A stretch of DNA of 12,291 bases from Candidatus Aenigmatarchaeota archaeon. Lineage in GTDB: Archaea > Aenigmatarchaeota > Aenigmatarchaeia > QMZP01. Positions 1,217-12,291 of the stretch are shown piece after piece. The notes below the pieces were generated by a model, which searched no databases, was not told where the DNA came from, and saw only the letters and a program-made list of their open reading frames with translations. Made by a program: the position numbers and the translations under genes. The stretch covers positions 1-12,291 of the forward strand of contig DAOVGQ010000056.1 of NCBI GenBank assembly GCA_030672315.1, in the 5' to 3' direction. The stretch's first letter is position 1; every line of letters starts with the position of its first letter.

Positions 1217-4200
1217 TTAGCTCGGGTAGCTGACAGGGGGTGCGGATGTCAGGCCAGCGACTGCAAGTTCTGCCTCCTCAAAGCTTTCAGAGGAGCAGTA
1301 GTCCTCTAACTGTTTCTTCATATCCTCAAAGTATTCTATCTGGGTATTCATGTCAACACCCTCCTGCTTCCCTATATACCCAAGGTATACCATGATAAGG
1401 CCCATCGCTATCATCATGTATCCTGTACCGCAACAAGTGGGATTTATCACCCAACAACAAGTTGCAAGTAGATAAAAACCAAGCGCGATTAACCCAACTC
1501 CCATCAGATAATACATCCATCCCCAGTCATCATAGCTTTTCTGGTTGGCCCTGAGCCTGTTTATAGTGTCATCGATATTGCTTATCCTGGCCTCGCATGA
1601 TTCAAGGCCGCTTGTCTTCCTTTTACTTGTTTCTATAGTATCATTAAAAGCAGATATATTCTTCACCATGGTCACGCCATTGAGTGTATAGTTGATGCTC
1701 ATGGAGAGGTTAAACGTTCTGTTTACCCCCTCTTCCACACCACTTTCCAGTGAACCCGGAATGAAGGCACAGTCCCAATTCCCGTAGGTTGCGGTCTCCA
1801 TGCAGTTTACCTCCGGGATTTTCTCCCCATCTATCTGGCAGAACACATTCAGGATTTCAAGGTCATCCGGCGAGTTCACTATGTGCGCATTGACAATGTG
1901 CTTCTTTATGTATTTGCATTCCCCTCCAATCCTGCCTATTATACATTCCCAGGGGTCTGTCTCAAATCCCAGAATCCTCAGGTCTATTGTGCTGTTGTCC
2001 ACACACTCACCGTTTGGGTTCGCTCCCAGGTAACAGAAGTAGCTATCACCAAAATCAGAGCAGCCGCAGTCCCTGCAGCAGTTTGTCTGGTCCTCACCCA
2101 GCCAGGTTTCGCACATCACAGGAGGGTCCCCGCTACCCTCCCCACAGTGCGAGGTCACTTCAATCACAACCTCCCCGATGGACTCCCCCCAGTCTTTTAC
2201 CTCCCTGTTAAACCCGTTGTTGTAATACAGGCTCACATTAAGGCTGTTTCCATTCAGTCTTATCTCCCGGTCACCCTCATCATAATAGGGAGAGGTCACA
2301 TAGTCCAGTACCGGCACAGTCATCGTGCAGCTCAGGTTGTAATCCCTCTCCGGGTTCTCTGAAGCCACACGTTCACAGTTTAGCCCGCAGTCAACATCGC
2401 CACCAGCAAGATAGCACTCAAAAACAAAATCAGTTATATCAGTCGCATTTGGGTAGTTCTCCACGTGCATGAGAACCGGAATCTCGTGCTCTTGTGTGGA
2501 GTCCACCACCTCCAGGGAACCGACGCTGTCTATCACTATACTGAAGTCAGCACTCCTGCACCCGTCACCCTCAGTGGGGCCGTCAACAGTCTGGGTGTCA
2601 CAGTACTGTCCTGCGGGGCATGGGCAGTCATAGCAGCAGTTGTCAGAATCCTCGTCCTCCCCTCCACAATCCTTGTCCCCGCACCAGTGCGGCCCGATTG
2701 AAAAATAGTTCAGGGACGTGCTTATGCTCTTATAAACATACCCAAGCGTCCCGTTCCTGTAACGCATATCAAGGGCCAGCTCAGGGGTTAAATCATAATT
2801 CCTAAGGGCGCTGTATCCTTGTATAGTGAAGGTAAGCGCGCAGGTCATGTTGTATTCCCCTGGGTCAGAGGAACCCTCCTCTGTGCAGGAAATGCTGCAG
2901 GTTGAGCTGCACGCCCCTGTATAGTCATAAACACACCCCAGCTCACAGGAAACGCCATCCAACTGGAATGTCTTGGGCTTGTTGCTGATAACAATGTTCA
3001 TGGATACCTGGTCACCTGCATTGTGCGTATAGAAGTGGTCAGGCCAGTATTTACCTATCTTATTAATATCTCCAGAATCCAGGTCCTCCCTGCACACCCC
3101 AGAGCTCGGGTCAGCACCCCCTTCATAGTCGCAGTAACCGCTTGGGCACCCGCAGTCCAGGCAGCAGTTCTCCCAGCTTTCTCCCAGTCCTGCCTCGCAC
3201 CCATACTCCCCGCACACGAACGAGCCTATGGTAATATCAGGGAACGGTGTCTCTATATACTTACTCCTCGGGGTTTTCCCGTCCATGTAATCAACCTTGA
3301 ACCTTATCGCATTGTTGGTTATCCTGAACTCCCCGCTGCCACACTCCTCCACTGGCGGAACCTCCACTGAACACACATAGATATCACCCGTGCTCTGGGC
3401 GCACGTGCATACACCGAACACACCCCCCAGCTTGCACCAGCTCTGTGTTACTGAATGGCCTGTCGGTGCATTGTCTATCTTGACCGGTATGCTGACAGTA
3501 TGACTCTCATAGCAGTTGACAACCCTGGGATCAACAGTCCCGAAGAGGCTGAGGCCTATACCCCCCACTGGCCTGCACCCCCAATGACTGTCACAGTAGT
3601 AATCTCCGCTGCAGGGGCAGTCCAGGCAGCAGTTGCTCGAGCTCTCACCCCTGTCGCTCTCGCACCCAAACATCCCACATGTATATGAGGGGTTGAGATA
3701 GAGCGTCACGGGGCTGTTCACCTGGGAGGACACGACAGGAAGCATGAAGCTGTAGTCCCTTGAGACCGAGCTCACTTCACTCCCCGGAATTTCCTGATAA
3801 CCAGCATTATTCGGCTGGCTGCTGATATCCCCCTCTCCATCTATGCTTATCTCGTAAACAAAGGATGCCCCCTTGAGGACAACCCTGCTTATCCAGTCAG
3901 TGTTTGCAGGAATCATGAAACGGTTTTTTATGAACTCCCTTATTGTCGATAGGAGACCAATATCCCTTACATAGACCCCTATCTCAGAGATATCACTCTC
4001 TTGGACAGTGAATGTCTGGCCGTCCCTTTCCACCACTGTCCAGAAGGCTACCCATACAGGGATGCCTTCGTTGTTGAGCTTCACAAAATAGAGGAGGTTT
4101 GCTGTGTCACCGCTCGATATCTCGCTCCAGCCATAGCTAGCGTCCACATCTCCAGAGAAGGCATCCACCCCAACCAACACGCTTTCCATGCAACTATAGG

Positions 4201-4471
4201 GATTCCTGTCCCTGCACTTGTAGAGCCAGACCCCCTCCAAACTCACCGAGGAGCTGCCGTTGGTCAATACAAGACTCAGGGTCTCTGTTCCCGGGTCAAC
4301 CGAGACCTCCCTCTCCACAAGGCCCCCCGGGCTGAAGCTTATGGGGCTCCCGAACTCTGCCCCTGTTGAGTCATAGGTTCTTACAATCACAGCCGATGCT
4401 ACGGACATGCTGATTACAAGATAGCTCGCCACCACAGCGAACAGCTCAACCCACAGGAACTTCCAGTTCAC
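1217..4471 (-). CDS. Giant cysteine-rich surface protein A (four NCC modules, C-terminal membrane pair)
   Basis: This 1084-residue protein of unknown function has about 61 cysteines. Residues 1-27 look like a signal peptide or membrane segment (FAVVASYLVI, then SVASA). An N-terminal domain without clustered Cys spans about 28-260. Four eight-cysteine modules lie at 265-299, 420-460, 597-638 and 776-823, each with an NCC-x-D-C-x-C core. Beta-rich, probably Ig-like domains alternate with them (about 319-418, 486-593, 659-774 and 841-946). A short coiled coil (about 955-978) leads to two membrane helices (984-1006 and 1017-1034) joined by CCWVINPTCC. More than ten N-x-S/T sequons suggest glycosylation. 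The start is GTG: an in-frame TGA lies two codons upstream, AGGTGAT is 5 nt away, and the N-terminus aligns with that of paralogue B. It is last in the operon, 10 nt after B. Role (inferred): structural or adhesive surface protein. Confidence 0.93.
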   Translation of the reverse strand: MNWKFLWVELFAVVASYLVISMSVASAVIVRTYDSTGAEFGSPISFSPGGLVEREVSVDPGTETLSLVLTNGSSSVSLEGVWLYKCRDRNPYSCMESVLVGVDAFSGDVDASYGWSEISSGDTANLLYFVKLNNEGIPVWVAFWTVVERDGQTFTVQESDISEIGVYVRDIGLLSTIREFIKNRFMIPANTDWISRVVLKGASFVYEISIDGEGDISSQPNNAGYQEIPGSEVSSVSRDYSFMLPVVSSQVNSPVTLYLNPSYTCGMFGCESDRGESSSNCCLDCPCSGDYYCDSHWGCRPVGGIGLSLFGTVDPRVVNCYESHTVSIPVKIDNAPTGHSVTQSWCKLGGVFGVCTCAQSTGDIYVCSVEVPPVEECGSGEFRITNNAIRFKVDYMDGKTPRSKYIETPFPDITIGSFVCGEYGCEAGLGESWENCCLDCGCPSGYCDYEGGADPSSGVCREDLDSGDINKIGKYWPDHFYTHNAGDQVSMNIVISNKPKTFQLDGVSCELGCVYDYTGACSSTCSISCTEEGSSDPGEYNMTCALTFTIQGYSALRNYDLTPELALDMRYRNGTLGYVYKSISTSLNYFSIGPHWCGDKDCGGEDEDSDNCCYDCPCPAGQYCDTQTVDGPTEGDGCRSADFSIVIDSVGSLEVVDSTQEHEIPVLMHVENYPNATDITDFVFECYLAGGDVDCGLNCERVASENPERDYNLSCTMTVPVLDYVTSPYYDEGDREIRLNGNSLNVSLYYNNGFNREVKDWGESIGEVVIEVTSHCGEGSGDPPVMCETWLGEDQTNCCRDCGCSDFGDSYFCYLGANPNGECVDNSTIDLRILGFETDPWECIIGRIGGECKYIKKHIVNAHIVNSPDDLEILNVFCQIDGEKIPEVNCMETATYGNWDCAFIPGSLESGVEEGVNRTFNLSMSINYTLNGVTMVKNISAFNDTIETSKRKTSGLESCEARISNIDDTINRLRANQKSYDDWGWMYYLMGVGLIALGFYLLATCCWVINPTCCGTGYMMIAMGLIMVYLGYIGKQEGVDMNTQIEYFEDMKKQLEDYCSSESFEEAELAVAGLTSAPPVSYPS
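2003..3679 (-). repeat. Four eight-cysteine NCC modules in protein A
   Basis: The modules span 3575-3679, 3092-3214, 2558-2683 and 2003-2146. Each has eight Cys in the order C, C, CC, C, C, C, C, with a core reading NCC-x-D-C-x-C followed by YC or FC and a last Cys 6-14 residues on. A Gly-Glu or Glu/Asp-rich stretch precedes the vicinal CC. Disulfide pairing or metal binding could both account for the conservation. The pattern loosely recalls CGDGxC...NCxxDCG repeats in other prokaryotic surface proteins; I cannot name a curated domain. Confidence 0.85.
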
Positions 4472-4476
4472 TTTTC

Positions 4477-4483
4477 ATCACCT
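4477..4483 (-). promoter_or_regulatory. Shine-Dalgarno site of protein A, overlapping the stop of protein B
   Basis: On the - strand the junction reads TTTTAGGTGATGAAAAGTG. The TAG stop of protein B (4482-4484) shares bases with AGGTGAT, which lies 5 nt before the GTG start at 4471. This supports GTG over the nearby ATG at 4476-4478, which is out of frame. Translational coupling of the two genes is likely. Confidence 0.75.
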
Positions 4484-7400
4484 AAAACATTGGTATGTAT
4501 GGCATCCCGCTCGTGGCACTCGCCAGTCCCCCAAATGTCTCAGAGGAGCACATCATCCTCTTCTGCTCGAGCTGCATCTCCAGCCCCTGTCTCTGCATGC
4601 CAGTGTTCTGTGAGGTCATGCCCAGTTGCTGCGCAAACATAATGAGCATCAGGGCCGTGGTCATGAGTGGCATGCACACTATCGCGCAGGGAGTGCTATA
4701 ACTCAGGGTATTCCCCCCAGCCGCAGACTCTCCCGCAAGGCTCAGTGAGGAGCCATCAGGGGATTGGGAAGGCTCCAAACCACTGGCCCCCAACATACCG
4801 GGCGGCAAGTTGGTAGGTATACTTCCTTTAAGGGGTCCGGCGCCGCCCCCGTAGCAGCTGTATATGCAGTACACAAAGGCCACCATGAACATGAACCCCA
4901 TAACCATGAAGAGCTTGGAGTAGCTGTCGTACTCATCAGCGTTGCTGTCGAGGTTGTTTATCATCCCCCGGAGCCTCGCTATCTCATCCTCACAGTTTAT
5001 CAGGGCTTCGGACTTCTTCCTGGTTATCTCCTCCTCGGTGCTGGCATTCACATTCTGTAGCACCTCCACATCACCGATGTGATATCTGATATACAAGCTG
5101 ATGTCCAGGGTGCGGGTTTCTGTGCCCACAGTTCCACCCAGGTCATTCAGGAGCAGGGGACATGTAAAGTTTCCGTGCTCCTCCCCGGACACACAGGTGG
5201 TTTTCTTGCCATCCTGCCCCTTCAGGATGTAGAAGGCGTCAATCACCTCGATATCAGGCGGGGCATTTATCACACGGACATATGACTCTATCTGGCTGAA
5301 TCTGCAGGGCCCCCCTATGTAGCCTATGGTACACTTCAGGGGATAGGGGTCAAACTCAACTATCTCCAGGAGTATGGTGTCGTTCTTCACGCAATTCCCA
5401 GTGCTCGGGTTCGCCCCCAGATAGCAGAAGTAGCCCTCTCCATAGGGGGGATCAGAGCAGCCGCAGTCCAGGCAGCAACTAGCTTGGTCCTCCCCAAGGT
5501 CCTCCTCACAGTCCTCATTCCCGCAGTGGGAAGTAACGGTGATTTCCACGGTTCCCAGGGGAGGTTCATAAAAATCCTCCCTCTTGTCAGGGCCGTCATT
5601 ATAGGATACTGCTATGTTGTAGCTGTTTGGCTGGAGTCTGAGCACTCTGTTGTTGGGGTCAGAGTCGTCATAGTAGGGCAGCCCTGTTGTTGTGTATCCA
5701 ATGGGCGGAATGTGCAGCTCACATTCAATACCGTATCCAGCATCTATCACCCCGGTCCCCCGGCAGTACATGACACAGTCTATATTCGGGTCATTGGCCA
5801 GGTTGCATGTCCCGGATATTGCGAAGCCCGAGGCCGGATCAGGGATGTGGCCTTTTATGGTAATGGTTTGAGGCTGTGTGGAGTCCTCCAGGTAAAGCTC
5901 ACCTATCTCATCGATAATAAGCTCGGTCCCTGAGAGGGGCTTGCAGCTGTCCACTCCCCGGGTGGGCCCGTCAATGTTCCTGGTGTCGCAGTAGTAGCCT
6001 TCAGGGCAGGGACAGTCATAGCAGCAGTTCTCTGAATTTTCGTTACCTGTGCAGACACTGTCCCCACATTGCTGTGCGCCCACTGATATATCCCTGAAAT
6101 TCTGAATAATGCCCCTCGTGACCATGACAGGGCCGTTGTTGTAGCTCAAGCTGAAGCTCAGGTTCGGCGAAAGGGTGTAATCAGATTCTGTATCATAATT
6201 ATCGATATCCAGGAAGAGCGTGCAGGAAACGTTGTACTCCTCCGGGTCAGACGAGACCAGTTCAGAACAACCTCTTAAAGAGCATGTCGCGGTGCAGGAT
6301 TCCTCACTTTCACCCTTCAGGCATCCTGTGCTGCACGAGGTGACTGCAACACCCAGGCTCCTGGGAGCGTTGCTGATAACAATGTTCATATCCACGGTCT
6401 TCCCTGATTCAGAAAACACTGAGAAGTGGTCAGGCTCTATGCTTGCCGCACGGATGTCGCTCCCCCGGGGGTTCTGCCTGCAGTAAGCATCTATCTTAGA
6501 CCCCCCTGTCTCATAATCACAGTATCCGACAGGACAGGGGCAGTCATAACAGCAGTTCTCCCAGTCCTCTCCCAGCCCTGCCTCGCACCCTCCCTGCCCG
6601 CATTTGAACGAGCCTATGGTTATATCAGGAAGGCCTGTCTCCAGGTCCATGGTCCTGGTTTCAGCCCCATCCATGAAGGATATCTGAACCCCGATTCTGT
6701 TGGGGCCGAGCGTGAACACACCCTCTGTGCAGTCATCCATGGCAGGGACGGTCACCGGGCAGCTGTAGATGCTGCCTGAAAGGCGGATACAGGATGTCTC
6801 GTGCTGGTCATTTCTGAGTCTGTACCAGGCCGATACCAGGCTCATGCCCGAGGGAGCGTTCTGAACCTCCACAGGAATGTTCAGGTCATGGCTCTCATAG
6901 CAGTTACTCACCCCGGACGGCACGCTTCCGTACAGGCTCAGGCCTATACCTGACTCTGGCCTGCACCCCCAGGAGGAATCACAGTACCAGCCAGGGCTGC
7001 AGGGGCAGTCCAGGCAGCAGTTGCTCGAGCTCTCGCCCCTGTCTTCTGTACCACCACTGCCATCCTCACACCTTGAATCCCCGCATATATAGGATGGGCT
7101 TTTATAGAGAACGACGGGGCTCTTTATGCCAGAAACCTCTGGAAGCATAAGGGTGTAATTCTTGGAGACCGAGGTCACCTCATTGCCTGATAAATGCTGG
7201 CCTTCAATATATCCGGGCTGGTCAAACTCCAGCACATACATCGAGTTTGCCGACTCAAGGACTATCTTGGTTACCCAGAGCGGGTTTACAGGAATCATGT
7301 GGTTGCCTGTTATGAACTCCTTTACTGTGTTGATATAGCCTATGTCATCCACATAGATGCTGAGGGAATTCAGGTCATCCTCTGATATCTCAAAGTCCTG

Positions 7401-7862
7401 CTGCGAGCCCCTCTCAATCTCTATCCAGAACCCTGCCCAGAAGGGCTTCCCTGCACTGTTTACCCTTACCATCACCAGTATGTTGGCCTGCTGCGGATAG
7501 CTCGCGGTCTGGTCAGCCAGGGAGGTCCAGGCGAACTCGGAAAGGAGGTCCCCCTGTGAGGACTCGGCCTGCACAGCAGAGACGCAGTCGGACGGGCTCA
7601 TGCCCCTGCACTTGTAGAGCAGTACGCTCTCCACAACCGCCCCGGATGTCGAGTTGGATATTCCGATGCTGACAGTGGGAGAGTCCCAGGGCGGATTTAT
7701 CACAACCTCCTTCTTGAGCATGTACCAGGGATTGTATGTTGCAGAGAGAGAACTCAAACCGCTGTATATCTCGACAGTTGTCGCAGACGCTGCGGGCAGG
7801 GTGAGGATTAGGTAGCTTGCAACTATTGCAAACACCTCAATCCCAAGAATCCCCCATTTCAT
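4482..7862 (-). CDS. Giant cysteine-rich surface protein B (four NCC modules, C-terminal membrane pair)
   Basis: This 1126-residue paralogue of protein A has about 58 cysteines and no function I can name. Residues 1-27 form a signal peptide or membrane segment (FAIVASYLIL, then PAASA). The four NCC modules lie at 260-300, 421-461, 599-640 and 780-824, within five residues of their places in protein A. Beta-rich domains with NAP/SNAP turns separate them. A coiled coil (about 955-980) leads to two membrane helices (about 983-1003 and 1057-1077). Unlike A, these are separated by a 53-residue Gly/Ser/Pro-rich linker, and a Gln/Met-rich tail follows. The ATG at 7862 is backed by GGAG 6 nt upstream; 9 nt separate the gene from the upstream one. 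Same-order paralogy points to tandem duplication. I infer that A and B are partner surface proteins, perhaps a heteromer. Confidence 0.93.
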   Translation of the reverse strand: MKWGILGIEVFAIVASYLILTLPAASATTVEIYSGLSSLSATYNPWYMLKKEVVINPPWDSPTVSIGISNSTSGAVVESVLLYKCRGMSPSDCVSAVQAESSQGDLLSEFAWTSLADQTASYPQQANILVMVRVNSAGKPFWAGFWIEIERGSQQDFEISEDDLNSLSIYVDDIGYINTVKEFITGNHMIPVNPLWVTKIVLESANSMYVLEFDQPGYIEGQHLSGNEVTSVSKNYTLMLPEVSGIKSPVVLYKSPSYICGDSRCEDGSGGTEDRGESSSNCCLDCPCSPGWYCDSSWGCRPESGIGLSLYGSVPSGVSNCYESHDLNIPVEVQNAPSGMSLVSAWYRLRNDQHETSCIRLSGSIYSCPVTVPAMDDCTEGVFTLGPNRIGVQISFMDGAETRTMDLETGLPDITIGSFKCGQGGCEAGLGEDWENCCYDCPCPVGYCDYETGGSKIDAYCRQNPRGSDIRAASIEPDHFSVFSESGKTVDMNIVISNAPRSLGVAVTSCSTGCLKGESEESCTATCSLRGCSELVSSDPEEYNVSCTLFLDIDNYDTESDYTLSPNLSFSLSYNNGPVMVTRGIIQNFRDISVGAQQCGDSVCTGNENSENCCYDCPCPEGYYCDTRNIDGPTRGVDSCKPLSGTELIIDEIGELYLEDSTQPQTITIKGHIPDPASGFAISGTCNLANDPNIDCVMYCRGTGVIDAGYGIECELHIPPIGYTTTGLPYYDDSDPNNRVLRLQPNSYNIAVSYNDGPDKREDFYEPPLGTVEITVTSHCGNEDCEEDLGEDQASCCLDCGCSDPPYGEGYFCYLGANPSTGNCVKNDTILLEIVEFDPYPLKCTIGYIGGPCRFSQIESYVRVINAPPDIEVIDAFYILKGQDGKKTTCVSGEEHGNFTCPLLLNDLGGTVGTETRTLDISLYIRYHIGDVEVLQNVNASTEEEITRKKSEALINCEDEIARLRGMINNLDSNADEYDSYSKLFMVMGFMFMVAFVYCIYSCYGGGAGPLKGSIPTNLPPGMLGASGLEPSQSPDGSSLSLAGESAAGGNTLSYSTPCAIVCMPLMTTALMLIMFAQQLGMTSQNTGMQRQGLEMQLEQKRMMCSSETFGGLASATSGMPYIPMF
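4695..4853 (-). other. Low-complexity linker between the two C-terminal membrane helices of protein B
   Basis: Residues about 1004-1056 of protein B are rich in Gly, Ser, Pro and Leu and carry no Cys after Y1004. Protein A has only about ten residues here, including two CC pairs. If both helices cross the membrane, this loop lies on the opposite side from the ectodomain and the tail, probably in the cytoplasm. It may be a partner-docking or flexible segment specific to B. Confidence 0.5.
5391..7085 (-). repeat. Four eight-cysteine NCC modules in protein B
   Basis: The modules span 6963-7085, 6480-6602, 5943-6068 and 5391-5525. Each keeps eight Cys and the CC-x-D-C-x-C core (NCCLDCPC, NCCYDCPC, NCCYDCPC, SCCLDCGC). 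Each module resembles the module at the same position in protein A more than its neighbours in B: module 4 shares YFCYLGANP, module 3 shares YCDT and DGPT, module 2 shares CEAGLGE. The four-module array therefore existed before the two genes split. Confidence 0.85.
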
Positions 7863-7868
7863 GTATTA

Positions 7869-7874
7869 CTCCTA
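7869..7874 (-). promoter_or_regulatory. Shine-Dalgarno site of protein B, overlapping the stop of the upstream gene
   Basis: On the - strand TAGGAG contains both the TAG stop of the prepilin-like gene (7872-7874) and the GGAG ribosome binding site (7869-7872). GGAG ends 6 nt before the ATG at 7862. The other junction of the operon has the same arrangement, which suggests coupled translation of all three genes. Confidence 0.7.
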
Positions 7875-10256
7875 GGTGCATACCACCCTGACCTGGCAGT
7901 CCTGCTCCAGGTCTTTCAGGTAGTCCAGGGCAGCCTGTTTGTCGCAGCAGGTCGTGCACGGCTCCTCCCAAAGCCCGGGACCGCATGAGCCGCAGTCACT
8001 CAAATCAATCCCGCCCACAGGGCAATCACAGAACATGCTGTTAATCTCAGCAGTGGTTGCACCACAGGACTCAGCCACAGCCTTCAGATAAGAGCAGTCA
8101 CACCCCGGCAGCACAATGGTGTTGTCGACATATTCCTCAGTGCTTACAGGGTCTATCTCGCATTTCTGCATTGCGGCGGCCAGGCAAGCCTTCTCGCTGT
8201 CTGTCATCACAAGACCAGAATCACTGCTCCTCCTTGGTATGTATACATAAACATTCCTGTCCTCACTGCCCAGGGCAAAGCCGCTGTAAGAGAAGCCGCC
8301 CCTGGGCATGTAATCCGCCAGGGGGTCATACATTGTTGCACCAACATCATAGCTGTATCCTGACGGAAGATAGTCTACCAAGGTGCTTACCAGCGGGGGT
8401 GAGTAGCATCCCTGGGTACACTCGCTACAGTTGCCCATAATCATATCCCTCATGTCTGCACCCACACTCTCTATTTCCTCAGCATGCTCCTCACAGAACC
8501 TGCATTCGTCTGTGTCCCCGCACCCCGGAGGGGCGTTGCTGATATCCACATTGGTTACAGGAAGGTTCATGTAACCGTTGTTGAATTCCACAAAGGCATG
8601 CTCCCTGTCCACTGGCCCGATGCTACACTGGTGGACGGTCACTGTATCAATATCGCAACTAACTGCGCAGGCATCGCAGCTGTCAAATTGCTTATCTCCC
8701 TCATGGTCATAGTAAAATCCATCCTCGGTGATGCTGACCTCCTTGAAGTGCACCCTTATCTCATGCACAGGGTTAAGCTTGACCTGGTAATTCTTGCTGG
8801 GTTCAAGCTCATCTGCCGAGACCTCCCTCTTCAGGAACTCGTAATCAGTGGTCTGATAGACAAAGAGTTCCTGAGTCCCTGTCCCGCACCTTATCAACCC
8901 CTCAACCTCGCCATTCTCATCTGTCTCCCCATCTCCAATGGGGCATCCCCCAAAGACAACCCAGGCCCCCTCCATGGGTGTCCCGAGTTCGTTAACTACC
9001 CTTACCCTGCCGTTGCAGTGCAGCTCCGCCTCTGTGCACTCGGGCAGCCCTGCTCTGGGTGAACCGCACCCCTCAGGCTTCGGCTCCATTACTTGGTCTC
9101 CCCTGTCCCTGATACCCACTTCGCTCGCGAAATTGAAGCTGTACCCTGTATAGGGGTCCCTCACCCTGATTATGAAGGGATAGTTGAATTCATAGGCATG
9201 GTTGTAGACAGCGGTGCAGACAGGTATTGTAAATCCCCCATGTGAAGGCATCTTGAAATTGGTCGCGAACACAAAGTCAAAGAGGTTGAAAACCCAGCCA
9301 TCAGCCATCAGGGTCCGGATGTCAAGGTCCGGATAGCTCTCTCCGTTCAGGTCCTGTATGGCAAACATCTTGGTCTGTGGTAGACATGAGGCCCCGGGAC
9401 AGAGGTTCTGCATGGGCACCCACCATTCAGTGGATACTATTACATATTCCAGTATCTCATACAGGTAGGCATTTATCTGCTGCGGGCTCCTGTAGACAAC
9501 CTCACCGCACTGTGTCATGGCACCTGAAGTGGGAAGCTTGGGATGCCCGTCTCCCGTCTCCTGGGAGAAGTATATGGCCGCTATGGTGAAAACATCAAAG
9601 TACCTGTTGTCCGCAGAGGCCTCTGCAAAGTCCCTTGCAAATGCATATATCTTTCCGAACTTGGTATCAATACGGGCCCTGTAAGGATAGAGGTCCCCTG
9701 ACATGGTGTAGTTCCTGACCGTGGTGGGCATGGTAACAGTGATGTCAATAAAATCAGGCTCATATATATTGGTACCTGGCAGCTTTTTTGTACCCTTTAT
9801 CTCTACATCAACATTAATCTTACTCTTGTCGAACTCTGCCCTGTTTCCATAGCGCAGCTCAATGTCATCCATACCCTCCAGGACAATCTTCTTTATGGAG
9901 GCCTCCATCCACAATTTCACATCCATGATGTCAGGATACATCACATTGTCACATCTCTGCCAGTAGGGCACTCCCATGAAAAGGAACTCGACATGATCCA
10001 CATCCTCATAAGTCCTTGTCACCCCTGGCATGTAGGCATCCAGGTAGCCACCATGGGTCATCATTGTCCTGAGGGTCTTGTCCGCGGCATCCCTTATCAC
10101 ACCTTTGACGCTGTCCGCGACCTGTCTCTGCTCGTCATACACCCCCTTGGGGACAGGGCTCGGTATAATGGTCCCGCCCTGAATGGCATAATAGGCCACT
10201 ATCACCACAACGAACATGATGCCGAGAACAACGATAAACTCCATCTGCCCCTTCAT
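7872..10256 (-). CDS. Prepilin-like, membrane-anchored cysteine-rich surface protein
   Basis: This 794-residue protein has an unknown function. It begins MKGQMEF, followed by a hydrophobic helix (residues 6-28). This resembles archaeal class III prepilin signals, in which a prepilin peptidase cuts between Gly and Gln; here the Glu comes sooner than in the usual Q-x-S-x-E form. The large exported part has a poorly cysteined region (30-400). A carboxypeptidase-regulatory-like beta sandwich is likely at about 412-498 (RVRVVNELGTPMEGAWVVF, then GETDENGE). Cysteine-dense stretches follow (527-617 and 719-793, including CDCPVGG and PCTTCCDK). About 34 Cys are present in all, mostly in the second half. 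It is the first gene of the operon with proteins A and B. The ATG at 10256 has no visible SD, but a TATA-like box about 29 nt upstream suits a leaderless mRNA. It may be a pilin-type subunit or an anchored adhesin. Confidence 0.92.
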   Translation of the reverse strand: MKGQMEFIVVLGIMFVVVIVAYYAIQGGTIIPSPVPKGVYDEQRQVADSVKGVIRDAADKTLRTMMTHGGYLDAYMPGVTRTYEDVDHVEFLFMGVPYWQRCDNVMYPDIMDVKLWMEASIKKIVLEGMDDIELRYGNRAEFDKSKINVDVEIKGTKKLPGTNIYEPDFIDITVTMPTTVRNYTMSGDLYPYRARIDTKFGKIYAFARDFAEASADNRYFDVFTIAAIYFSQETGDGHPKLPTSGAMTQCGEVVYRSPQQINAYLYEILEYVIVSTEWWVPMQNLCPGASCLPQTKMFAIQDLNGESYPDLDIRTLMADGWVFNLFDFVFATNFKMPSHGGFTIPVCTAVYNHAYEFNYPFIIRVRDPYTGYSFNFASEVGIRDRGDQVMEPKPEGCGSPRAGLPECTEAELHCNGRVRVVNELGTPMEGAWVVFGGCPIGDGETDENGEVEGLIRCGTGTQELFVYQTTDYEFLKREVSADELEPSKNYQVKLNPVHEIRVHFKEVSITEDGFYYDHEGDKQFDSCDACAVSCDIDTVTVHQCSIGPVDREHAFVEFNNGYMNLPVTNVDISNAPPGCGDTDECRFCEEHAEEIESVGADMRDMIMGNCSECTQGCYSPPLVSTLVDYLPSGYSYDVGATMYDPLADYMPRGGFSYSGFALGSEDRNVYVYIPRRSSDSGLVMTDSEKACLAAAMQKCEIDPVSTEEYVDNTIVLPGCDCSYLKAVAESCGATTAEINSMFCDCPVGGIDLSDCGSCGPGLWEEPCTTCCDKQAALDYLKDLEQDCQVRVVCT
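8763..9023 (-). other. Probable carboxypeptidase-regulatory-like (Ig-fold) domain
   Basis: Residues about 412-498 of the prepilin-like protein show the family pattern. A first strand is followed by GTPMEGAWVVF, then DGETDENGEVEG, and a final strand reading YQVKLNPV. Such domains are common stalk or spacer modules in surface proteins. Two extra Cys (438 and 457) could cross-link it. The call rests on pattern recognition only. Confidence 0.6.
10173..10256 (-). other. Class III-like prepilin signal and anchor helix
   Basis: Codons 1-28 encode a short basic start (MKG), a candidate Gly-Gln cleavage point, a Glu at position 6 and a helix rich in Val, Ile and Phe up to YYAIQGG. In type IV-like pilins this helix packs into the filament core after cleavage. 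If it is not cleaved, it would be a plain N-terminal membrane anchor. Confidence 0.6.
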
Positions 10257-10269
10257 ATATATTATTAAT
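10256..10269 (+). promoter_or_regulatory. Candidate TATA region of alaS
   Basis: TATATATT (10256-10263) and the overlapping ATTATTAAT (10261-10269) lie 41-54 nt before the alaS ATG. Either would place a transcription start near 10284-10296, giving a short leader that could still include the AGGAG at 10294. Which element is used cannot be told from sequence. Confidence 0.4.
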
Positions 10270-10280
10270 TGATGGTTACT

Positions 10281-10289
10281 ATTAATAAT
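10281..10289 (-). promoter_or_regulatory. TATA-like box of the surface-protein operon
   Basis: On the - strand ATTATTAAT occupies -25 to -33 relative to the A of the ATG at 10256. Archaeal TATA boxes sit about 25-30 nt before the transcription start, so transcription would begin at or next to the start codon. That agrees with the missing SD. No clear purine-rich BRE is evident beside it. Confidence 0.5.
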
Positions 10290-10293
10290 TTTC

Positions 10294-10298
10294 AGGAG
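10294..10298 (+). promoter_or_regulatory. Possible Shine-Dalgarno site of alaS
   Basis: AGGAG lies 11 nt before the ATG at 10310. That is a little far for an archaeal SD, so initiation may be weak or the match fortuitous. The alaS frame has a TAA at 10286-10288 and no other start codon before 10310. Confidence 0.45.
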
Positions 10299-10309
10299 AA
10301 CCTGTAACC

Positions 10310-12291
10310 ATGCTCACAAAAAAGGCCCTCATGGAGAAGTTCAGAAAGACCCCTGATAAATACTGGAAGGCCGAACTCTTCAAGGAGAAGGGCTTTGCAA
10401 GAAAGAGATGCAGCAACTGCGGCAAGTATTTCTGGAGCCTTGACCCTGACAGGAAGCTGTGCGGCGATCCGCCCTGTGAGAACTACGGCTTTATAGGCAA
10501 GCCCATAACCAAGGTCAGGTGGGACTATGTCCAGGCTTGGAAGGCCTTTGAGAGGTTCTTTATGAAGAACGGCCATGCCTCGGTTCCCCGTTACCCTGTT
10601 ATAGACAGGTGGAGGCCCGACCTCTTCTTCACAATAGCATCCATCCAGGACTTCCAGAGGCTTGACAAGGGCAACATGGTCTTCGAATACCCCGCAAACC
10701 CGCTTATCGTTCCCCAGATGTGCCTGAGGTTTCCTGACATCCAGAATGTCGGTGTGACAGGCAGGCACCACACCTCCTTTCTCATGTCCGGCCAGCACGC
10801 CTTTGGCTACCCCGAGGAGGGCTACTTCAGGGACCGCTGCCTCGAGCTCAACTTCAGCTTTCTTAACAGGGTGATGGGAATCCCAGAGAGGGAGCTCACC
10901 TATATCGAATCCCTCTGGGCCATGCCCGACCTTTCAGCATTCGGCCCCTCAATGGAGACACTCTCCCGCGGCCTGGAGCTTGTGAACTCTGTATTCATGC
11001 AGTTCACCAGTTCAGGCTCCTCCTTCAGGGAGCTTCCAAAAAAAGTGATTGACGTGGGCTGGGGCCACGAGCGACTGGTGTGGTTCACCCAGGGAACCAT
11101 TACCGGCTATGATGCGGTCTTTGGTCCTGTTATAGAATGGCTCAGGAAGAGGGCAGGCATCAGGGGCAGCGAACTCCTGGAGAGGTATGCATCCCTGGCA
11201 GGGGGCCTTGACATCGAGGAGGCCGCCAATGTCAGAAAGCTCAGGGAGGGTATAGCCAGGGAGCTCGGTGTCTCTGTCAAGGAGCTCACCGAATTAGTCG
11301 AGCCCTCCCAGGCCCTGTATGCAATAGCTGATCACACCAAAACCCTCCTCTTTGCCATAACAGACGGAGGCATACCCTCTAATGTGGGGGGAGGCTACAA
11401 CCTGAGGGTCCTGCTAAGGAGGATGCTCTCCTTTATCAATGAATTCGGTTTTGACATCGACCCAGGCAGGGTAGCCGAGCTCCATGTGAAGCATCTCCAT
11501 CCCATGTTCCCTGAACTATCCAGCGGCCTGGACAACTTCGCCAAGATTATGGACATAGAGAGGGAGCGCTACGAGAAGACCCTTGAGAAGGCAGGCCTCC
11601 TTATACAGAGGGAGCTGAAGTCAGGCAGGGGCATAGATACCAAGACCATGGCAAGGCTCTACACCTCAAACGGAATCACACCCGAGCTTGTCGAGAAGGT
11701 TGCCAGGGAGCAGGACCTTGATTTTTCTGTGCCAGAGGGCTTCTATTCAAGCCTGACCCAGGGGCACATGACAGGGGAGAAGGATCAGGCTGAGAAAGCC
11801 CTCAGGGTGGATGTCTCGGGCATACCCAAGACCCGTACGCTCTTCTATGAGAAACCCTACCAGAAAGAGTTCAAGGCTGCTGTTCTGGCCAGGCTGGGCG
11901 ACTGGATTGTCCTTGACAAGACCCTTTTCTATGCCGAGGGTGGGGGCCAGCTCTCGGACCAGGGCATTCTCTGGCTGGGCACCAGGGAGTTCCAGGTCCT
12001 GGACGTCCAGAAGATTGATGACGTGATTCTCCACAAGGTGGACAGGCCAGAGGGCCTAAGGAAGGGCCAGGCGGTGAGGGGCGAGATAGACTGGGAGAGG
12101 AGACACACCATCATGAAGATGCACACCTGCACCCACATCGTTGCAGGCGCAGCCCGTAAGGTTTTGGGCTCCCATATCTGGCAGGCCGGTGCCAAGAAGG
12201 ACCTTGAATCATCCAGGATAGACCTCACCCACTACAAGCCCTTCTCCCAGGAGGAGCTCAGGGAGATAGAGCGCCTGGCCAATGACATAAT
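10310..12291 (+). CDS. alaS: Alanyl-tRNA synthetase, archaeal type, 3' partial
   Basis: The enzyme charges tRNA-Ala with alanine and hydrolyses mischarged Ser- and Gly-tRNA in its editing domain. It is cytoplasmic. The frame starts at ATG 10310, just after an in-frame TAA, and stays open to the window edge: 660 codons of an expected 900 or so. Residues 34-56 (CSNC...CGDPPC) form the archaeal N-terminal zinc insert. Class II motif 2 lies in the stretch RFPDIQNVGVTGRHHTSF (140-157), and motif 3 is GWGHER (250-255). The C-terminal half of the catalytic and tRNA-recognition region includes SNVGGGYNLRVLLRRML (357-373). The editing domain begins near FYAEGGGQLSDQG (540-552) and has the metal-binding HTCTH (605-609). 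Its second, Cys-x3-His, motif and the C-terminal domain lie outside. It is divergent from the surface operon. Confidence 0.97.
   Translation, partial: MLTKKALMEKFRKTPDKYWKAELFKEKGFARKRCSNCGKYFWSLDPDRKLCGDPPCENYGFIGKPITKVRWDYVQAWKAFERFFMKNGHASVPRYPVIDRWRPDLFFTIASIQDFQRLDKGNMVFEYPANPLIVPQMCLRFPDIQNVGVTGRHHTSFLMSGQHAFGYPEEGYFRDRCLELNFSFLNRVMGIPERELTYIESLWAMPDLSAFGPSMETLSRGLELVNSVFMQFTSSGSSFRELPKKVIDVGWGHERLVWFTQGTITGYDAVFGPVIEWLRKRAGIRGSELLERYASLAGGLDIEEAANVRKLREGIARELGVSVKELTELVEPSQALYAIADHTKTLLFAITDGGIPSNVGGGYNLRVLLRRMLSFINEFGFDIDPGRVAELHVKHLHPMFPELSSGLDNFAKIMDIERERYEKTLEKAGLLIQRELKSGRGIDTKTMARLYTSNGITPELVEKVAREQDLDFSVPEGFYSSLTQGHMTGEKDQAEKALRVDVSGIPKTRTLFYEKPYQKEFKAAVLARLGDWIVLDKTLFYAEGGGQLSDQGILWLGTREFQVLDVQKIDDVILHKVDRPEGLRKGQAVRGEIDWERRHTIMKMHTCTHIVAGAARKVLGSHIWQAGAKKDLESSRIDLTHYKPFSQEELREIERLANDI

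Follow-up and report, generated by a model that had tools for sequence, protein, structure and literature searches.

A three-gene set on the minus strand

The stretch of DNA analysed here (the window, 12,291 nucleotides (nt)) carries on its minus strand three open reading frames (ORFs), at 7872-10256, 4482-7862 and 1217-4471, the last with a GTG start, which encode a pilin-like protein (C) and two giant paralogues (A1 and A2). The ORF call returned exactly the ends given in the first-pass annotation of the window, and the operon-like layout described there is real: gaps of 9 nt between C and A1 and of 10 nt between A1 and A2, with the TAG stop codon of each upstream gene lying inside the Shine-Dalgarno-like stretch of the next (TAGGAG..ATG and TAGGTGATG..GTG). 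On balance we lean towards reading C and A as a lineage-specific type IV pilus-like adhesion system, in which C would be a large minor-pilin-like subunit and A a membrane-anchored stalked adhesin. Judged from its relatives, the window appears to derive from an uncultured archaeon with a small genome, within Candidatus (Ca.) Aenigmatarchaeota or an adjoining lineage. The genes and junctions are as follows.

7872..10256, minus strand: gene C, 794 amino acids (aa), pilin-like N-terminus (MKGQMEFIVVLGIMFVVVIV) and large ectodomain (ORF, AlphaFold model, 29 homologues)
7863..7874, minus strand: C stop codon and 9-nt gap, overlapping the ribosome-binding-like site of A1 (sequence of the gap)
4482..7862, minus strand: gene A1, 1126 aa, signal peptide, head, four units of an eight-cysteine module plus an immunoglobulin (Ig)-like domain, two C-terminal hydrophobic segments (ORF, model, hydropathy)
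4472..4484, minus strand: A1 stop codon and 10-nt gap, overlapping the ribosome-binding-like site of A2 (sequence of the gap)
1217..4471, minus strand: gene A2, 1084 aa, starting with GTG; a tandem paralogue of A1 whose alignment shows the same architecture (ORF, alignment, tree)

C and A form a conserved gene pair

Gene order was compared in 40 regions picked from the listed C matches, which cover 34 of the 42 C-bearing genomes; together with the window these made 41 loci, in which ORFs were called and clustered. Of 46 C frames, the one in the window included, one sits at a contig end and was excluded from the test, as was locus L094, where C is mis-called and the genome tables place C and A close together, from the adjacency count. 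A lies directly downstream of C on the same strand in 41 of the 45 testable frames; the distance is between -67 and +11 nt, with a median of -11, and the reading frames of most pairs overlap. Homologues of these genes are thus not routinely found apart. The first-pass annotation had the genes acting as one unit, which holds for the C-A pair, with its adjacency and its paired divergence, and is not supported for the trio, the second giant being a recent tandem copy.

Two settings of the pair recur. In type 1, that of the window, C-A lies between the alanyl-tRNA synthetase gene (alaS, in 12 loci) and the L10/L12 genes (L10 gene in 13 loci). In type 2, found at 14 loci, the pair lies downstream of small pilin-like genes and is usually followed by c2, whose product has a signal peptide and, at its C-terminal end, a hydrophobic segment. 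One type-1 locus, L089 (G129:C6:63000-82999), holds two tandem C-A pairs.

In the C tree, the 15 type-1 rows and the 11 type-2 rows are each set apart by a single branch (support 100/98); this tree leaves out L101_5, another C-like frame, 1024 aa long. In the A tree, built by a quick method with only Shimodaira-Hasegawa-like approximate likelihood ratio support, 14 type-2 rows group together (100), as do 40 rows that include the type-1 copies (99). Inside this larger clade, A1 and A2 fall into two sister clades of 9 rows each (100 each), so that the second giant is a later tandem duplicate within one lineage. The double C-A pairs of G107/G114, G111/G112 and G129 have the same partners in both trees; paralogous C-A pairs have diverged together.

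Protein searches returned 29 relatives of C and 30 of A, the latter including A1 and A2 themselves. Among the 29, the named rows were two Aenigmarchaeota and one labelled Thorarchaeota; this last, P0024 (Candidatus Thorarchaeota, 32% identity over 78% of the query), possibly comes from a mis-binned contig. A wider C profile found 69 relatives, and the seven that carry organism names are all Aenigmarchaeota or Aenigmatarchaeota. Among whole genomes, C is present in 42 of the 156 of the phylum of G002 (G094, with weak matches at an expectation value (E) of 5e-4, is included in the 42) and in each of the 24 from the G001 family. No relative was found in viral contigs. As far as seen, the proposed C-A complex is peculiar to Ca. 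Aenigmatarchaeota. The A profile matches 71 of the 156 genomes at E up to 0.001, many of these being short cysteine-module matches in other large frames. Lone eight-cysteine modules were matched in further very long Aenigmatarchaeota frames (open frame up to 11249 aa), among them G029:C12:82658-82738, G027:C13:14474-14626 and G060:C8:12056-12130; their presence inside these other frames makes them a mobile module that extends beyond the A family.

C begins like a pilin

The following features were assigned within C.

10179..10256, minus strand: C residues 1-26, the KGQxE motif with the one hydrophobic helix of the protein; prepilin peptidase may cut after Gly3 (hydropathy, model helix 2-26, family motif; cut site inferred)
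8763..9041, minus strand: C residues 406-498, carboxypeptidase-regulatory / transthyretin / CnaB-like beta domain

Hydropathy gives C a single hydrophobic segment, at the N-terminus, and ahead of this helix stand a basic residue, Gly or Ala, and Gln, as expected of a type IV pilus subunit. The start [KR][GA]QxE is found near the N-terminus in 36 of the 46 C frames and NGQAE in one more, while the nine frames lacking such a start include mis-called or truncated starts. With its 794 aa, the protein is "small", as the first-pass annotation called it, only by comparison with the giants. The AlphaFold model of C has a predicted local distance difference test score (pLDDT) of 85.2 and a predicted template modelling score (pTM) of 0.71. 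Foldseek with this model returned generic Ig stalks, and a PDB sequence search with C gave no match. VIA covers mainly residues 406-498, which leaves the N-terminal pilin-like half of C, like the head of A, without a match, so that no fold can be claimed for either.

A combines a constant head with a changing stalk

A1 and A2 are 39% identical over 1035 columns, and each of their eight cysteine modules holds exactly eight cysteines, in agreement with the earlier description of two giant paralogues, each with a signal peptide and four eight-cysteine modules.

7104..7781, minus strand: A1 head domain, residues 28-253 (model; present in all A frames scored, 41/41)
6963..7085, minus strand: A1 cysteine module 1, 8 Cys (sequence)
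6480..6602, minus strand: A1 cysteine module 2, 8 Cys (sequence)
5943..6068, minus strand: A1 cysteine module 3, 8 Cys (sequence)
5391..5525, minus strand: A1 cysteine module 4, 8 Cys (sequence)
4857..4913, minus strand: A1 hydrophobic segment, residues 984-1002 (hydropathy 2.12)
4632..4688, minus strand: A1 hydrophobic segment, residues 1059-1077 (hydropathy 2.23)
3575..3679, minus strand: A2 cysteine module 1, 8 Cys (sequence)
3092..3214, minus strand: A2 cysteine module 2, 8 Cys (sequence)
2558..2683, minus strand: A2 cysteine module 3, 8 Cys (sequence)
2003..2146, minus strand: A2 cysteine module 4, 8 Cys (sequence)

The model of A1 (pLDDT 79.7, pTM 0.40) shows the head and the Ig-like spacers. 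Hydropathy plots of A1 and A2 each contain one N-terminal and two C-terminal segments, the second C-terminal segment of A2 being weak (mean 1.59). The twin C-terminal helices reported earlier are not a trait of the family: internal hydrophobic segments number two in only 22 of 71 A proteins, one in 26, three in 14, four in 4 and none in 5.

What defines the family is the head. It was fully covered in all 41 A frames scored, each above 80 bits, a threshold that favours frames with a head, whereas profile coverage dropped to 0.58-0.72 over the Ig-like and cysteine parts of units two and three. Frame length ranged from 706 to 2254 aa, and the CCxDCxC-like pattern occurred 0-5 times per frame. "Cysteine-rich" was dropped as the defining trait, since the pattern is missing from 8 of the 41 frames; two of the frames without it, L087_10 and L089_7, align over 97% of the profile, and their modules may thus be degenerate and not missing. 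We read A as a fixed head that would act with C, on a stalk that evolution stretches and shrinks, the cysteine modules probably serving as spacers. Headless A-like genes were not among the 41 frames counted; one of these, c28, has A-like C-terminal sequence and lies upstream of C in L099, L100, L101 and L102, giving the order c28-C-A in one lineage.

No family of Pfam or NCBIfam matched C, A1 or A2 at E up to 1, and within these collections no relation of A to known S-layer proteins was found. A PDB sequence search with A1 returned epidermal growth factor rows at chance level only (E 0.05-0.3). The top Foldseek rows for the A1 model were plexin/MET PSI-IPT ectodomains, in which a disulphide-rich module likewise alternates with an Ig-like domain in an extended stalk; with a template modelling score of about 0.1, this match was not read as homology.

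A pilin-like gene cassette is inherited with C

In relatives, outside the window, we identified a cassette of five pilin-like genes in the order c7-c10-c6-c11-c3. The full cassette lies directly upstream of C, sometimes with an extra ORF between, in eight loci (L080, L083, L086, L093, L095, L105, L107 and L147), and occurs in another eight whose fetched stretch holds no C (L136, L137, L140, L142, L143, L144, L145 and L146). The closest named genome (L131) has c6-c11-c3-C on one short contig, and several genomes retain both the cassette and C-A on different contigs. In the phylum of G002, c6 was found in 37 of the 42 C-bearing genomes and in 1 of the other 114, and c3 in 36 of 42 and 1 of 114, in genome sets which, like that for the peptidase below, were compiled by hand from match listings and leave out G014 (c3, E 1.8e-5) and weak partial c6 matches in G146, G149, G150, G152 and G153. 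Of the cassettes without C, that of L136 (G002:C1:709000-728999, at 7505-10960) is a second copy in a complete chromosome, its last gene entering a masked stretch, and that of L140 (G137:C9:22000-41999) is complete in the sole such genome of the profile without a C match, whose assembly may be incomplete. Two adjoining multi-helix ORFs beside a PilA-like ORF, possible candidates for a TadC-like platform protein, were noted by eye in G002.

With regard to assembly factors, a prepilin peptidase (PF01478, Peptidase_A24) was matched in 36 of the 42 C-bearing genomes, the model being over cut-off in 123 of the 156 genomes of the phylum; the peptidase model PF06847 was matched in 0 of 24 genomes. 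The PF00437 ATPase exceeded its cut-off in every one of the 24 G001-family genomes, with a model that also matches 14 of 14 controls and non-pilus ATPases. The peptidase and ATPase counts fit the earlier expectation that assembly would depend on factors encoded elsewhere.

By eye, c2 and c13 (L083 13628-16719 and relatives) often carry a short acidic tail with terminal aromatics (EEEYF, EEEFY) past the last hydrophobic segment, perhaps a common cytoplasmic signal.

How the C-A complex may work

Gene order, co-inheritance, co-duplication, domain anatomy and the presence of assembly genes are the data from which we infer the processing of C, its binding to A, the filament and the function in contact. 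C and A, made from overlapping or near-touching genes, would bind each other, probably via the A head. Prepilin peptidase would cut C after Gly3, and the single helix would then keep C membrane-bound or part of a short filament, with the large ectodomain pointing outward. A would be exported via its N-terminal signal and retained by its C-terminal hydrophobic segments, and its invariant head would be borne outward on a stalk of Ig-like domains linked by disulphide-rich modules. Since C-A forms the last part of an operon that opens with five pilin-like genes in many relatives, a pilus-like assembly is a likely working partner of the complex. The complex would probably serve for contact with host or partner cells or with surfaces.

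Several observations weigh against this reading. Pilins usually carry Glu at position +5 of the mature protein, whereas the conserved Glu of C would be at +3 if the cut is made before Gln. The model of C has helices at 2-26 and 37-67, with a break across residues 27-36 and low confidence at 27-32, and the Pfam models without a match to C at E up to 1 include those for class III signals and pilins (PF04021, PF07790). These class III signal/Pilin_N models match c11 and c3 of L083 below cut-off (13.3 of 23.7 and 17 of 25.2 bits). For the most part, the C-bearing genomes form one related group, so the co-occurrence of C with the cassette is not independent evidence, and Fisher values overstate the independence. 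As the peptidase is found phylum-wide and PF00437 in all 14 controls, neither points to the C-A system; among the neighbours of the C-A pairs we noted neither an ATPase nor a platform gene, and the cassette copy of G002 at 717830 is at least 73 kb from every PF00437 match. The membrane segments of A, whose count ranges from 0 to 4, mean that A itself cannot be threaded into a pilus. Finally, four C frames are without a following A (L101_5 is followed by a second C that has its own A, L111 and L114 carry c65 in place of A, and L112 has an A-like frame upstream), and one G107/G114 pair is placed differently at depth in the C and A trees. Weighing the KGQxE start, the cassette and the peptidase against the +3 Glu, the broken helix, the lack of a Pfam pilin match, the A segments and the missing ATPase link, our confidence that the system works in a pilus-like manner is moderate, and we do not count it among type IV pili.

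In a different, less probable explanation, the helix of C never polymerises: C would be a single-pass anchored ectodomain and form with A a static projection of the envelope. The position of Glu and the broken first helix would be natural there, A is anchored through its own segments, and type-1 loci such as the window have no small pilin-like genes beside C-A. Against such a fixed adhesion complex stand the co-occurrence of C with the pilin-like cassette, the gene run that the two share in 14 type-2 loci and the KGQxE-type start of 36 of 46 C frames. It is improbable that the pair is an S-layer or envelope scaffold, with A, which has a C-terminal anchor and Ig-like domains, as a lattice or stalk protein like archaeal SlaB, and C as its partner: C is limited to 42 of 156 genomes of the phylum, many genomes have two loci, and the threefold variation in A length is unlike a lattice protein. 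Most doubtful of all is that the C-A order is a mere by-product of shared ancestry and the two functions are separate. The genomes with C are indeed mostly related and small genomes retain gene order, but C-A pairs were duplicated and retained together several times, they stand in differing neighbourhoods (alaS/ribosomal, pilin-like cassette and others) and the frames overlap in most pairs. The first-pass annotation is partly supported: it was right on the surface unit and wrong on what defines it, namely the A head and not the cysteine-rich modules.

Relation to known systems

The pilus-like adhesion system favoured here has parallels in archaeal type IV pilus sets. In the sections at hand of Makarova et al. 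2016 (PMC4858521), these likewise combine several small pilin-like proteins and a large protein with a signal peptide, interpreted as an adhesin or minor pilin, with large, C-terminally anchored, cysteine-bearing S-layer-like proteins. The window differs from them in having no ATPase or TadC and in its sequence families, and further in the +3 Glu of C and the fixed C-A pair with an interchangeable stalk. According to the same sections, the secretion ATPases and TadC of archaea can act for pilin sets whose genes lie elsewhere, and no cognate pilins could be identified for some nanoarchaeal ATPases; Aenigmatarchaeota are not mentioned in them. In the thin pilus of Saccharibacteria TM7x, the large minor pilin PilX2 contributes to host binding, and its loss lowers binding (PMC12206443, portions at hand). 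The analogy with C is that PilX2, a minor pilin of an ultrasmall symbiont, has an additional C-terminal domain; it belongs to a bacterial type IVa system, for which those portions name no A-like partner. The nanohaloarchaeal SPEARE proteins are, like A, very large surface proteins of DPANN archaea thought to act in symbiont-host contact, and in the portions at hand of PMC9563170 they are described without a pilin-like partner; the likeness is one of description. Among open-licence full texts, no description of the C-A/cassette system was found.

We tentatively go one step further, to a possibility we hold less firmly than the adhesion system itself. Ca. Aenigmatarchaeota may possess an undescribed contact machine, made up of a five-subunit pilin-like base (c7-c10-c6-c11-c3), C as a giant pilin and A as its matched, anchored adhesin; the head of A would be fixed, and its stalk rebuilt as Ig-like and cysteine modules are gained or lost. 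If so, it would supply pilin-like partners for the orphan pilus ATPases of DPANN-type archaea and serve host attachment, and the separate duplicated C-A copies would give cells several contact specificities. For the host attachment of DPANN-type archaea, C, the A head and the cassette are a concrete, testable candidate. Moreover, the analysis offers function hints for proteins of 600-2250 aa labelled hypothetical in databases.

Surroundings of the set in the window

The plus-strand genes preceding the trio encode ribosomal protein L10/P0 (PF17777 match) and then the acidic ribosomal protein P1/L12 (PF00428), and alaS (PF01411) lies on the plus strand beyond C. On a named Ca. Aenigmatarchaeota contig (L001; the same contig as L113), C is likewise beside alaS, at 64% identity in the best segment. 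A scan for sigma-70 promoters and terminators gave about the level of shuffled sequence, with a sigma-70 model not suited to archaea. The divergent starts of C and alaS are parted by an AT-rich gap of 53 nt (10257-10309) that is TATA-like by eye, so that the transcripts may have very short leaders.
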